Virus record (IMG/VR): IMGVR_UViG_3300025127_000320 | Coordinates: 1-22,325 of that record | Strand: one strand, 5' to 3' | DNA: 22,325 nt | Source: a virus | Shown here: positions 18,215 through 22,325 of the stretch, piece by piece | Position numbering within the stretch: position 1 is the stretch's first letter | Layout of the letters: each line of letters begins with the position of its first letter | Notes under the pieces: generated by a model | The model's database searches: none | What the model saw: the letters and a program-made list of their open reading frames with translations, nothing else | Told to the model about the DNA's origin: nothing | Translations under genes and position numbers: made by a program

Positions 18215-18505
18215 TCATATTAATGCCACTTTATTATCTACTAACTTGTGAAGCGCGACATCGATGCGCCCATGATCATCACTATCTTTACGAGATTCAC
18301 ATTCTTTTATATACTGATCTTCAATCGTTTTATAATTATCAGATTTCTTAACAATCTTATCATTAACGCGTAAAAAATATTGCTTGGTACTTGGGTAGGT
18401 AAGCTCAATAACCGATCCATCGCTCAATTGAACGTCCTTTTTCATACCTTTTTTATTATTAAGATGAATTACAACATCATTGTCATAGGCGCATCGTATA
18501 ATCAT
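18215..18505 (-). CDS. Hypothetical protein, 96 residues
   Basis: I do not recognise the protein. It begins MIIRCAYDNDVVIHL, a strand-rich start, followed by KKDVQLSDGSVIELTYPSTKQYFLRVND (two beta hairpins) and a charged C-terminal helix with ECESRKDSDDHGR. It could be a small beta-sheet virion or chaperone protein. Its ATG overlaps the preceding stop as TAATGA and its own stop precedes the next ATG by one base. There is no membrane segment or metal motif. Confidence 0.55.
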   Translation of the reverse strand: MIIRCAYDNDVVIHLNNKKGMKKDVQLSDGSVIELTYPSTKQYFLRVNDKIVKKSDNYKTIEDQYIKECESRKDSDDHGRIDVALHKLVDNKVALI

Positions 18506-18720
18506 TACTCTTCTTTTTCCAGCGATTCACGAAGCATAGTTACAAACCCATCGTGACCAACTTGTAATTGATCAGCAATAAATCTGTTTGATGCTTGTTT
18601 GTTTTGTATGTCACGCAAATGAGCAACCATCATTTTTTGCTCATCCGACATTTTATTAATCTCATACTGTTGATCATCTAATGTGAGTATGTCTGACTTT
18701 TCTTTTTCTTTTTTAGCCAT
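18505..18720 (-). CDS. Conserved phage protein, 71 residues (DUF6447-like)
   Basis: The protein has SDILTLDDQQYEINKMSDEQKMM near the N-terminus, then a long helix (VAHLRDIQNKQASNRFIADQLQV) and an acidic end. A short ILTLDDxxYxIxxLSDExK hairpin followed by a coiled-coil helix matches a small marine-phage family that I associate with DUF6447; function is unknown. The ATG at 18720 is chosen because AGGAGA lies six bases ahead; an upstream in-frame codon at 18744 lacks this. It shares a nearly identical leader with the 87-residue gene. Confidence 0.65.
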   Translation of the reverse strand: MAKKEKEKSDILTLDDQQYEINKMSDEQKMMVAHLRDIQNKQASNRFIADQLQVGHDGFVTMLRESLEKEE

Positions 18721-18735
18721 TATTTTCTCCTGTTT
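18715..18735 (-). repeat. Duplicated translation leader, copy 2
   Basis: AAACAGGAGAAAATAATGG ahead of the 71-residue gene is almost identical to the leader at 19036-19056 (one base differs over 21). It includes the Shine-Dalgarno, the spacer and the first codons. Confidence 0.6.
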
Positions 18736-18737
18736 AG

Positions 18738-18776
18738 TTAACAATTACAATTCTTGCAATTACAGCATTTGCACAT
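18738..18776 (-). CDS. Cysteine-rich micro-ORF, 12 residues
   Basis: Between the stop of the 87-residue gene (18778) and the leader of the next gene lies an ATG opening twelve codons: MCKCCNCKNCNC, then TAA. Six of the twelve residues are Cys, spaced CxCCxCxxCxC, a metallothionein-like density. The ATG follows the previous stop after one base (TAATATG), so reinitiation is possible; no strong Shine-Dalgarno is seen apart from a GAAGAAGAA run. The DNA has an 8-base direct repeat (18742-18749 and 18757-18764), so the peptide could be a by-product of repeat structure. Expression is not shown. Confidence 0.35.
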   Translation of the reverse strand: MCKCCNCKNCNC

Positions 18777-18777
18777 A

Positions 18778-19041
18778 TTATTCTTCTTCTTCAGATTCTT
18801 CTGGTTCAGGTTTACTATCTTCATACGCTTTCTTAATTTCATCTGTCCACAGTGCACTAGCTAATGCTCTCAATTCAGAACTTTCAGCACTTACATCTGC
18901 ATCTGGCATAAATGATTTTCTATGATATGAAAATGATATTTCTTCACCATCTTCCATAATAGATGTTTTACATCGCTCTTGAATACATTTGTATTCTCCA
19001 CGAATCTCATAATCGTATGTTTTTTTCTTTTCTAAAGCCAT
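18778..19041 (-). CDS. Conserved phage protein, 87 residues
   Basis: The sequence reads YDYEIRGEYKCIQERCKTSIMEDGEEISFSYHRKSFMPDADVS, then a helix LRALASALWTDEIKKAYED and a strongly acidic tail ending EESEEEE. A strand-rich front with EDGEEIxxSYHRxxxxPxxD and an ALWTDxxKxAY helix is a pattern I recall from small proteins encoded just after fibre genes in marine phages, with no known function. AGGAG lies ahead of the ATG. It follows the fibre gene after 43 bases, so it may help fold, attach or regulate the fibre. Confidence 0.6.
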   Translation of the reverse strand: MALEKKKTYDYEIRGEYKCIQERCKTSIMEDGEEISFSYHRKSFMPDADVSAESSELRALASALWTDEIKKAYEDSKPEPEESEEEE

Positions 19042-19084: not shown

Positions 19085-22000
19085 TTATGCGACTCTATAA
19101 GAGCCACCTATTATAACTGCATTTCTATTTGATCCATCTGACGGTGAACTTTCATCGAGTGTGGAATCGTCATCATTAACATCAGTTCTTTTGTATAATG
19201 CTATATAACTACCAGCATTAGTAATTCTAGCACTAATCGGATTGTTATTAGATGCAAAGAAAAAACTATTGATAGAACAAGCAGTAACCACATTAGTCGT
19301 ACTATCTGGAGCAAATGGTAATCCAGTAATTCTTAAATCTCCAGAACCGCTACTGTTGGAATAGCCATCTGTTCTAATAAAGCATTGAATGTGAACAACA
19401 TTACCAACTTTGGTATAGCGACCAATTTGTCTATCATGGGTGAATGAAGAATCGCCAGCAGTAGTCAATGTATAAGTAGGTGTCCAAGTGCCTTCTTCAT
19501 AGTCATCAAGTGCATTTGCATTACTATTTGCAACTTGTGATGCTGGAAACCTAATTGCACTTGCATAAACTTGAGCTTCACCATCAAATGCCATATAGAC
19601 ATCAGTTACATTTGAATTACCAAGAGTGACTGTATTACCGCCTTTACCTACAGTTCCATATCCAATTGCTGTTTGATTAGTGCCATTAACAACGGATGTG
19701 TCTGTATCTGCCCCTATGAGAGTATTTTGATTTCCTGTGGTAATAGAATCACCGCTACTTTTTCCGATGGATACGTTATGGTCTCCTGAAGTAATTGCTA
19801 ATAAGGAATTATGACCTACACCAACATTATTTGCTTCTGCTCCAGATGCACCAAAACCAGATTTGAATCCTACATAAGTGTTTGCATCGCCAGCAGTATA
19901 AGCACCAGCCCTATCTCCAACTGCTACATTCTCATCACTTGTAGTATAGTATAATGCTTCTGCTCCGATTGCTGTATTTGAATATCCAGTTTGGTTTGTA
20001 ATAAATGAGTTCCAACCCAATGCTGTATTTTTATATCCAGTATTGTTGACTTTTGCACTTTCATAACCGATTGCGGTATTATGATAGCCATCAGCCAAAG
20101 CTCCTAATGCAGATGTACCAATCGCTATTGTTCCTATTTGTTCGTTTGCTCCAGTAGAATCTAATGCTTGATACCCAATAGCAATATTGCTTTCAAGATG
20201 TCTTGTACCTGTTAATGTGCCCCCAGCTAAAGCATCAGTTCCAATCGCCACATTGCGTTTTATTTCTCTATTGGTACTACTTGCTGTTCCATCTTGTTTA
20301 GCCGCACCTAATGCACTATTACCAATAGCAATGTTATCTGATTCATCATCAGCCGCAGTTGTTAATGTTGCTCTTCCCACTGCTACATTATGACTTCCAG
20401 CAGTTAAAGCACCAAGCGTAGACCTTCCAACTGATGTGTTATATCCACCCGTAGTAAGAGCATCAGAATTGTATGAGCCGATTGATGTATTTTGTTGTCC
20501 AGTAGTTAATGCAAATAATGAATTATAACCAATCGCAGTCGTACCATCTGTAGCAGTAGTTGTAGCAGATGCATCCCCATAAAAGGCATTTGCACCTATA
20601 GCTACACATTGTGCAATTCCATTAGCAGTGCCATTCATTGCCCTCATTGCAGAATCACCAACAGCAACATTCTTACTTGGGCTTATTGCATCGTGTAAGG
20701 CTTTGTGACCTAAAGCAGTATTATCTGCCCCATCTCCATCTGTATCTCCATTTAGAGCTTGATAGCCAACAATGGTGTTAGCACCGCCTGTTGTGGTTAC
20801 TTCACCAGCCCCAGAACCGATTGCAACATTGTCATCAGCAGTTGTAACTGATTTTAAAGCTTCGTAGCCTACTCCAGTATTATTTGTTGCTCCATCACAA
20901 GCACTTCTCATCACAGAATTACCAATTCCTGTATTATAACTTGTTGCAGAATCTGCCCAAGTTCCTGAACCAGACTGGTATCCAATAAAAACATTTTCTG
21001 TTGAACCTAAACTATTTGAACCAGCATCAGTATCAAACATTGATTGATACCCAATCGCCATATTTTTTGCACCAGTAGTATGAGTTTTTAGAGCTTCATA
21101 TCCAATGGCTAAATTACCTGCACCCGATGTTAATGCTGTAAGGGCTTCATATCCAATTGCTACTGTTCCATTTGCACCTGAACTATTGATTGAATAACCA
21201 CTACTTCTTCCAACTAAAGTAGTATATTGTGTTGTAGTTAAACTTCCACCAGCCTGTCTGCCAATAGCGACATTAGAATTACCTTCAGTTAAAGAAAAAA
21301 GAGTATCTGAACCTACAGCTACGTTGGAATCTCCAGTAGTGATGCTCCTCATAACAGCAAATCCAATTCCAGTGTTACGCTCTGATGCACCAATGTTACC
21401 AGCACCCATTGCTTCTTGACCAAATATTGTGTTGTAGTCGGCTCCTACATTAGCTGATTGTTGCCAAGCAGTATGTCCAAATATTGTATTGCCTGTGTTT
21501 CCACCATCATTATTAGCTAATGAGATAACAGAGTTGGAGTCAAGTAACATAACTGTTGTTGTAGGAACACCATCACTTGCACTTGTTACTATTTCAAGTG
21601 AGCCTTGAGTTGTACCATCACCGCCATAAACACGAATTTGTGACTTACTTGATGATTCCTGACCTAAGACCATAGCACTTACATCGTGAACTGTGTTTTG
21701 ACCATATACAGTGACTGCACCATTTACAGATAAAGGATGTGAAGGATTGTTATCGTTTATACCCAACATACCAGATTCTGTTAATCTCATTAATTCAGAA
21801 CCACCACTATCTGATGCTCTATTTTTACCGAATACAAACTCTGTATCAGTTTGACTGTTGTCACTATCAATGTTGAAATACATTGATTCTGGAGTGTTTA
21901 TCTTTCCATTAGTTGAGCCACTGACTCCTAAAGTAAGTGCAGAATTAAGGCTTACATCACCAGATGCTACTATATTGCCAATACTAAGGTCACCATTAGC

Positions 22001-22325
22001 CCATTCAATGTTCCCACTACCACTAAAATAACCTCTTTGCGTTCCACCTGTAGAAAATGCTATTGTATTATCTGCTAAGAAAAATAAACCTGTATGAGTA
22101 TCGCCAGTATTTGTTAATGATGGAGCAGAAGCAGAACCATCTGGAAGAGAAATAGAACCAGCAAAAGTAGCTGATTGGTCTGAGCCTATGGTTAAGGCAG
22201 TAGAATAAGCACTTCCATTGTATCCTCTAATTACTAAACTTCCGTGACTTGAGCCATTTCTTAAACTTAGATATGTAGTTGCTCCACTTGTAAGAAGTTC
22301 AGATATTTGGTTTGTTCCATCTGTA
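19085..22325 (-). CDS. Tail-fibre-like protein with many YadA-type repeats (partial)
   Basis: The frame is open from the right edge to the TAA at 19087-19085, at least 1079 residues; an ATG at 21883 is internal because the same frame continues upstream with repeats of the same style (GNIVASGDVSLNSALTLG). Over 30 units of the type NTAIGYxAL, separated by TTG/SN turns, run from about 21500 to 19620; such units form left-handed beta-roll, trimeric adhesin-like stalks. The C-terminal 140 residues start with LDDYEEGTWTPTY and GRYTKVGNVVHIQ, a widespread tip domain of phage tail fibres. It should bind host receptors. It lies far upstream of the tail genes, so a head-fibre role is not excluded. Confidence 0.75.
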   Translation of the reverse strand, partial: TDGTNQISELLTSGATTYLSLRNGSSHGSLVIRGYNGSAYSTALTIGSDQSATFAGSISLPDGSASAPSLTNTGDTHTGLFFLADNTIAFSTGGTQRGYFSGSGNIEWANGDLSIGNIVASGDVSLNSALTLGVSGSTNGKINTPESMYFNIDSDNSQTDTEFVFGKNRASDSGGSELMRLTESGMLGINDNNPSHPLSVNGAVTVYGQNTVHDVSAMVLGQESSSKSQIRVYGGDGTTQGSLEIVTSASDGVPTTTVMLLDSNSVISLANNDGGNTGNTIFGHTAWQQSANVGADYNTIFGQEAMGAGNIGASERNTGIGFAVMRSITTGDSNVAVGSDTLFSLTEGNSNVAIGRQAGGSLTTTQYTTLVGRSSGYSINSSGANGTVAIGYEALTALTSGAGNLAIGYEALKTHTTGAKNMAIGYQSMFDTDAGSNSLGSTENVFIGYQSGSGTWADSATSYNTGIGNSVMRSACDGATNNTGVGYEALKSVTTADDNVAIGSGAGEVTTTGGANTIVGYQALNGDTDGDGADNTALGHKALHDAISPSKNVAVGDSAMRAMNGTANGIAQCVAIGANAFYGDASATTTATDGTTAIGYNSLFALTTGQQNTSIGSYNSDALTTGGYNTSVGRSTLGALTAGSHNVAVGRATLTTAADDESDNIAIGNSALGAAKQDGTASSTNREIKRNVAIGTDALAGGTLTGTRHLESNIAIGYQALDSTGANEQIGTIAIGTSALGALADGYHNTAIGYESAKVNNTGYKNTALGWNSFITNQTGYSNTAIGAEALYYTTSDENVAVGDRAGAYTAGDANTYVGFKSGFGASGAEANNVGVGHNSLLAITSGDHNVSIGKSSGDSITTGNQNTLIGADTDTSVVNGTNQTAIGYGTVGKGGNTVTLGNSNVTDVYMAFDGEAQVYASAIRFPASQVANSNANALDDYEEGTWTPTYTLTTAGDSSFTHDRQIGRYTKVGNVVHIQCFIRTDGYSNSSGSGDLRITGLPFAPDSTTNVVTACSINSFFFASNNNPISARITNAGSYIALYKRTDVNDDDSTLDESSPSDGSNRNAVIIGGSYRVA
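19620..21500 (-). repeat. Protein-level tandem repeats in the fibre gene
   Basis: More than 30 degenerate units with the core N-[TV]-x-[IVL]-G, spaced 14-30 residues apart, with TTG, SLT and YxAL signatures. At DNA level they differ in most positions, so the array is old or selected for protein shape. This is a stalk repeat and not a CRISPR or satellite. Confidence 0.7.

Follow-up and report, generated by a model that had tools for sequence, protein, structure and literature searches.

Here, we report that a virus fragment from IMG/VR (IMGVR_UViG_3300025127_000320; "the window" refers to the whole 22,325-nucleotide stretch that was analysed) carries a 12-codon micro-ORF in which half of the residues are cysteine. 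The micro-ORF recurs in marine phages with its frame, Cys codons and spacing conserved, it is either present or cleanly absent, it moves between gene contexts, and it belongs to a class of look-alikes. From these patterns we infer translation, metal or thiol binding and a benefit to the phage. Judging from sequence features, we see about an even chance that this is a translated micro-gene with a very small metallothionein-like product that would bind metals or thiols.

The (-) strand of the window encodes, in order, a tail-fibre-like gene, an 87-aa phrog_6228 gene, the micro-ORF and a 71-aa DUF6447 gene (Table 1). From 18776 down to 18738 the codons read ATG TGC AAA TGC TGT AAT TGC AAG AAT TGT AAT TGT TAA, giving a peptide with 6 Cys among its 12 residues in the spacing CxCCxCxxCxC. 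Its location and composition are as described in the first-pass annotation, which had also called this spacing rare by chance. Indeed, none of 150 dinucleotide-preserving shuffles of the window produced such an ORF and the real window has one; the micro-ORF is beyond chance. The same annotation had placed it in the only sizeable gap in this part of the operon, but a second gap of about 43 bases separates the tail fibre from the 87-aa gene. A single nucleotide lies between the upstream stop codon and the micro-ORF ATG, and 17 nt separate the end of the micro-ORF from the DUF6447 start codon (18720). The 22.3-kb fragment also contains an integrase gene (its Phage_integrase match is sub-threshold), and its small proteins have relatives in Pelagibacter and Roseobacter phages.

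Table 1. Features at and around the cysteine-rich micro-ORF in the window.
Feature	Position	Strand	Remarks
Cys-rich micro-ORF	18738..18776	(-)	MCKCCNCKNCNC followed by a TAA stop; homologues and neighbour-fetched loci
Stop-start junction	18777..18780	(-)	TAA of the upstream gene (18780-18778), a single T, then the micro-ORF ATG
Purine-rich GAAGAAGAAGAA	18781..18792	(-)	3' end of the upstream gene
Upstream gene, 87 aa, phrog_6228	18778..19041	(-)	
Downstream gene, 71 aa, DUF6447 (PF20045)	18505..18720	(-)	
AGGAG Shine-Dalgarno of the DUF6447 gene	18727..18731	(-)	Begins 7 nt past the micro-ORF stop codon
Tail fibre / tail spike-like structural protein	19085..22325	(-)	Extends beyond the window
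Terminator-like hairpin	19089-19107	(-)	Just past the tail fibre, ahead of the 87-aa gene

Relatives were gathered by a pattern scan of IMG/VR and by fetches that used both neighbouring genes, the latter loci being selected without any cysteine requirement. More than 40 further marine viral contigs have the cassette with the micro-ORF in the equivalent position, after the tail fibre (or the small gene that follows it) and before the DUF6447 gene. Neighbour-fetched loci have either an intact Cys ORF of 12-14 codons or a gap of about 15-25 bases without any remnant; in a few distant loci the gaps are longer and unrelated. No decayed copies were seen among these loci, the sole exception to the intact-or-absent pattern being a fusion on one contig (L077:93-332), where the phrog_6228 protein has its own C-terminus deleted and runs in frame into CCKCKDCNC. 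An independent pattern scan returned polar-type, in-frame, stop-free matches at this locus only. Of eight contigs checked for the peptide pattern, seven had a single match; the last had been chosen as cassette-free and had none. Searches of cultured phages in INPHARED gave no confident DNA match to the cassette, and scans of Roseobacter phage DUF6447 neighbours, pelagiphages and HTVC008M gave no sense-strand peptide of this kind.

Across variants, the Cys codons differ only between TGT and TGC, as the first-pass annotation had proposed to check in related phages. The residues between them vary (codon 6 is N, K or D; codon 9 is N, D or E), the spacing is constant in every 12-codon form, and the longer forms MCDCKCC.. 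and MCDCKDCNCKECNC retain 7 or 6 Cys. All family variants are built from M, C, K, N, D and E only. In the neighbour-fetched set there are two variable Cys sites, both changing at the third position (p ~0.10), or three when the window is included (p ~0.025); the synonymous-site argument in this unbiased set is thin when taken alone. A first p value of 0.005 was inflated, since its haplotypes had been found with TGY patterns. In other families all 15 of 15 variable Cys sites are synonymous; these larger counts support Cys-codon conservation without proving it, because the scans demanded TGY.

These comparisons bear on the possibility that the locus is a DNA or RNA element, or a repeat, whose translation is incidental. 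The sequence is short and AT-rich, the cassette comes and goes in a cut-and-paste manner, and the window's copy does contain the 8-base repeat that had been pointed out (TGTAATTG, present twice). Most relatives have TGTAAATGTAAAGATTGTAATTG instead, however, and the repeat is absent from variants with AAA and GAT codons. An origin as a chance product of the repeat is refuted, because Cys codons, frame and spacing persist through changes in the repeat; the annotation had looked to a conserved repeat or structure with a drifting Cys frame as the sign of an artefact, and the opposite pattern was found. With changes in the Cys codons restricted to third positions, and RNA structure and an Rfam match both absent, this explanation is largely refuted and we regard it as highly improbable.

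Signals for translation are found upstream of the micro-ORF in most relatives. There the preceding gene ends GAATCTGGAGAATAATATG, GAATCTGGAGAA replaces the window's purine-rich stretch, and a GGAG Shine-Dalgarno stands about 7 nt before the ATG; where the cassette directly follows the tail fibre, the upstream end reads TTAGAAGGTAAATAAAATG. Shine-Dalgarno-like sites occur in 7 of 9 distinct ends before a cassette versus 7 of 26 in cassette-free relatives (p 0.015). Several of the cassette-free ends with such a site keep the ESGE ending, and these loci look like recent losses. The window's copy has only GAAGAAGAAG before its ATG, the weakest site of the set, and therefore its micro-ORF may rely on reinitiation after the upstream stop. 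The junction in relatives is TAA-[A/T]-ATG or, in one context, TAA-ATG with no gap. We propose that the micro-gene would be translated by stop-start coupling to the preceding gene, together with the late tail genes. A programmed +1 frameshift from the upstream gene into the peptide was also considered; a fixed shift of this kind is excluded because a third upstream context, the MAIEWKAK gene, joins TAA and ATG without a gap and so in another frame relation.

The stop-start junction upstream and the Shine-Dalgarno just downstream could also mean that the mini-ORF merely relays ribosomes between the upstream gene and DUF6447. In cassette-free relatives, however, the downstream Shine-Dalgarno is unchanged and normally spaced, and six Cys would not be retained in a spacer. 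Such a coupling role is very unlikely to be the explanation.

The micro-gene is repeatedly gained or lost in phages. Three kinds of gene precede the cassette (a phrog_6228 protein, the tail fibre itself or the 79-aa MAIEWKAK gene) and two kinds follow it (DUF6447 or a coiled-coil gene). Mapped onto a tree inferred from the upstream gene, with the cassette left out, presence switches about 10 times, and well-supported branches require at least 6 of these changes. The relative closest to the window has 98% identity in the upstream gene and no cassette.

The main rival explanation is a cis-acting leader that senses cysteine, in which slow decoding of the six Cys codons would alter access to the downstream Shine-Dalgarno. 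Cys makes up half of the codons, six of them stand ahead of DUF6447, and the micro-ORF stop is followed 7 nt later by that gene's AGGAG. The stop codons of cousin peptides share bases with the Shine-Dalgarno that follows (GAATAGGAGG in L485 and TTAGGGGGATAATATG in L480), and the gene downstream in L485 encodes a sulfur-using Fe-S scaffold. Cys-rich leaders are also known: Canestrari et al. (2020), as cited in PMC9094748, described polycysteine leaderless short ORFs of mycobacteria as attenuators. Those ORFs resemble the micro-ORF in being short, Cys-rich and just upstream of a gene, whereas the micro-ORF is operon-internal, has a ribosome-binding site, changes contexts, shows chelation-type spacing and has no cysteine-metabolism gene downstream.

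RNA structure does not favour such a leader. We folded 24 versions of the region, spanning 20 nt upstream of the ATG through 45 nt beyond the ORF, and the energies match those of shuffled sequence (z-scores of about -1.4 to +1.2). The downstream Shine-Dalgarno is about half unpaired, and no structure hides it. An RNA attenuator structure was rejected on these near-zero z-scores. The cassette region has no match in Rfam, and no terminator-like site was found between the micro-ORF and DUF6447, the single one found being just past the tail fibre. The genes downstream vary and most are not sulfur genes: the cassette itself precedes DUF6447 or the coiled-coil gene, and only the L485 cousin precedes Fe-S genes. 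Furthermore, close relatives have lost precisely the cassette, with the downstream start region unchanged, and a sensor would not need the fixed CxCCxCxxCxC spacing. The leader explanation is weakened by these observations and we consider it unlikely.

Slightly less probable still is that the peptide is a virion part, a Cys tag that would crosslink through disulfides or metal with the tail fibre or the preceding small protein. The cassette directly follows the tail fibre in one context, the L077 fusion attaches CCKCKDCNC to the 87-aa protein, and ..KCNC forms the C-terminus of several Peptidase_S74 tail fibres (L142, L359, L362 and L363). The KCNC endings are located at L142:3979-3981, L359:2393-2419, L362:11408-11434 and L363:206-232, with Peptidase_S74 confirmed in L142, L359 and L362; the scan for CNC-ending tail fibres returned mainly noise and a few genuine S74 fibres. 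Against a tag, loss of the cassette is frequent, fusions are few and cousin peptides also occur far from tail fibres. The S74 tails, moreover, sit on the chaperone part, which is normally cut off. A tail-associated tag is suggested, but it is not needed by most of the evidence.

Of the three interpretations that the first-pass annotation had offered, the repeat artefact has fallen, the cysteine-sensing leader has lost ground, and a putative metal-binding peptide is the best supported. The six thiols, at fixed CxC, CC and CxxC spacings, could bind a soft metal (Cu(I), Zn or Fe) or buffer thiols, and the peptide might act during infection or within the particle. A thiol-acting peptide, most simply one that binds a soft metal, would fit the fixed spacing, the presence of at least six thiols, the polar filler, the independent emergence across many phage backgrounds and the accessory presence. 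One small Cu(I) or Zn cluster would suit six cysteines.

The copper metallothionein of the fungus Neurospora has about 25 residues, and we know of no characterised metallothionein as short as 12. The micropeptide resembles metallothioneins (e.g., Pfam Metallothio_2, PF01439) in its very high Cys content (6 of 12 residues), in its CxC, CC and CxxC motifs, whose spacing is invariant in the 12-codon haplotypes, and in the polar residues between them, with no aromatic residues in any family variant. It differs in length (12 residues versus at least 25) and in its setting in phage late operons. A family-level match is lacking: Metallothio_2 is sub-threshold for two longer cousins (E 1-3; 10.6 and 9.4 bits against a cut-off of 23), and the longer cousins have no above-threshold match in Pfam, NCBIfam, PHROG or PDB. 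We therefore describe the peptide as metallothionein-like, without claiming membership of the metallothioneins. A search of openly accessible literature found no paper describing phage metallothioneins. The micro-ORF is like phage small proteins generally in being an unannotated small gene between larger ones; the text of a review of such proteins (PMC11323111) mentions neither cysteine nor metal. We found no existing name for this class of Cys-rich micropeptides.

Similar peptides appear in other marine phages. A wider scan with the peptide pattern without stop codons returned more than 100 viral contigs, which split into two groups. Chance frames are mostly rich in Y, W, F, L or I and rarely have a Shine-Dalgarno, whereas the second group consists of polar residues and Cys only, mostly has a Shine-Dalgarno 6-12 nt before the ATG and is tightly fitted between genes. 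A looser pattern scan of genome contigs gave chiefly chance frames. The polar group includes MCKCCKCCTCTCPECN, MCSCCKCCNCNCC, MCTCCKCCNCTCC, MCKCCKCCNCTCCE, MCNCCDCCDCGCGCKS, MCKCCDCCDCDCGCNC and MCDCCDCCNCCCK, together with the 23-residue MCDCCGCETCVCPPECPDCGCNS, which has one V besides; earlier scans had found MNCNCKNCNCDPCDCSCTCC, MKNCNCQKCKCGTSCSCKCCNC and MSCNSPNCKCGPTCDCKDCNC in the same style. Altogether, other marine phages carry at least 10 further peptides of 12-23 residues in this style. Searching INPHARED at the DNA level gave no match for the PECN and IscU cousins.

On a 103-kb marine phage contig (L485, 3577-4359), MCKCCKCCNCTCCE ends 8 nt before a NifU_N (IscU-like) gene, which is followed by an Fe-S_biosyn (IscA-like) gene. 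This Fe-S neighbour is a single case and a hint of a metal role; other class members lie among structural and small uncharacterised genes, most contexts being structural rather than metal-related. In contigs related to cyanomyophages (L477, L507, L526 and their relatives), MCKCCKCCTCTCPECN is located between two structural-like genes, and the gene after it starts 1 nt before the end of its stop codon. More Cys-rich small ORFs were noted elsewhere (L378, L382, L387, L389, L020, L301 and L322), in other contexts: a holin-like region of a phage, one contig of bacterial appearance and one from Pacearchaeota. One of these ORFs has a signal-peptide-like N-terminus.

More tentatively than for the micro-ORF itself, we suggest that ocean phages may carry a large polyphyletic set of metallothionein-like peptides of 12-23 residues. 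Coupled to late and structural genes, these might handle copper, zinc, iron or thiols in the course of infection or supply virions with metal, and they would have been overlooked as falling below the length limits of gene callers.

If translated and metal-binding, these peptides would be smaller than any other metallothionein-like gene product found in nature, and their genes would form a novel kind of accessory gene for phages of metal-poor seawater. Gene callers that impose a minimum length would then be overlooking a recurrent class of phage genes, and metal control by phages, including the idea of iron in phage tails, would become directly testable.
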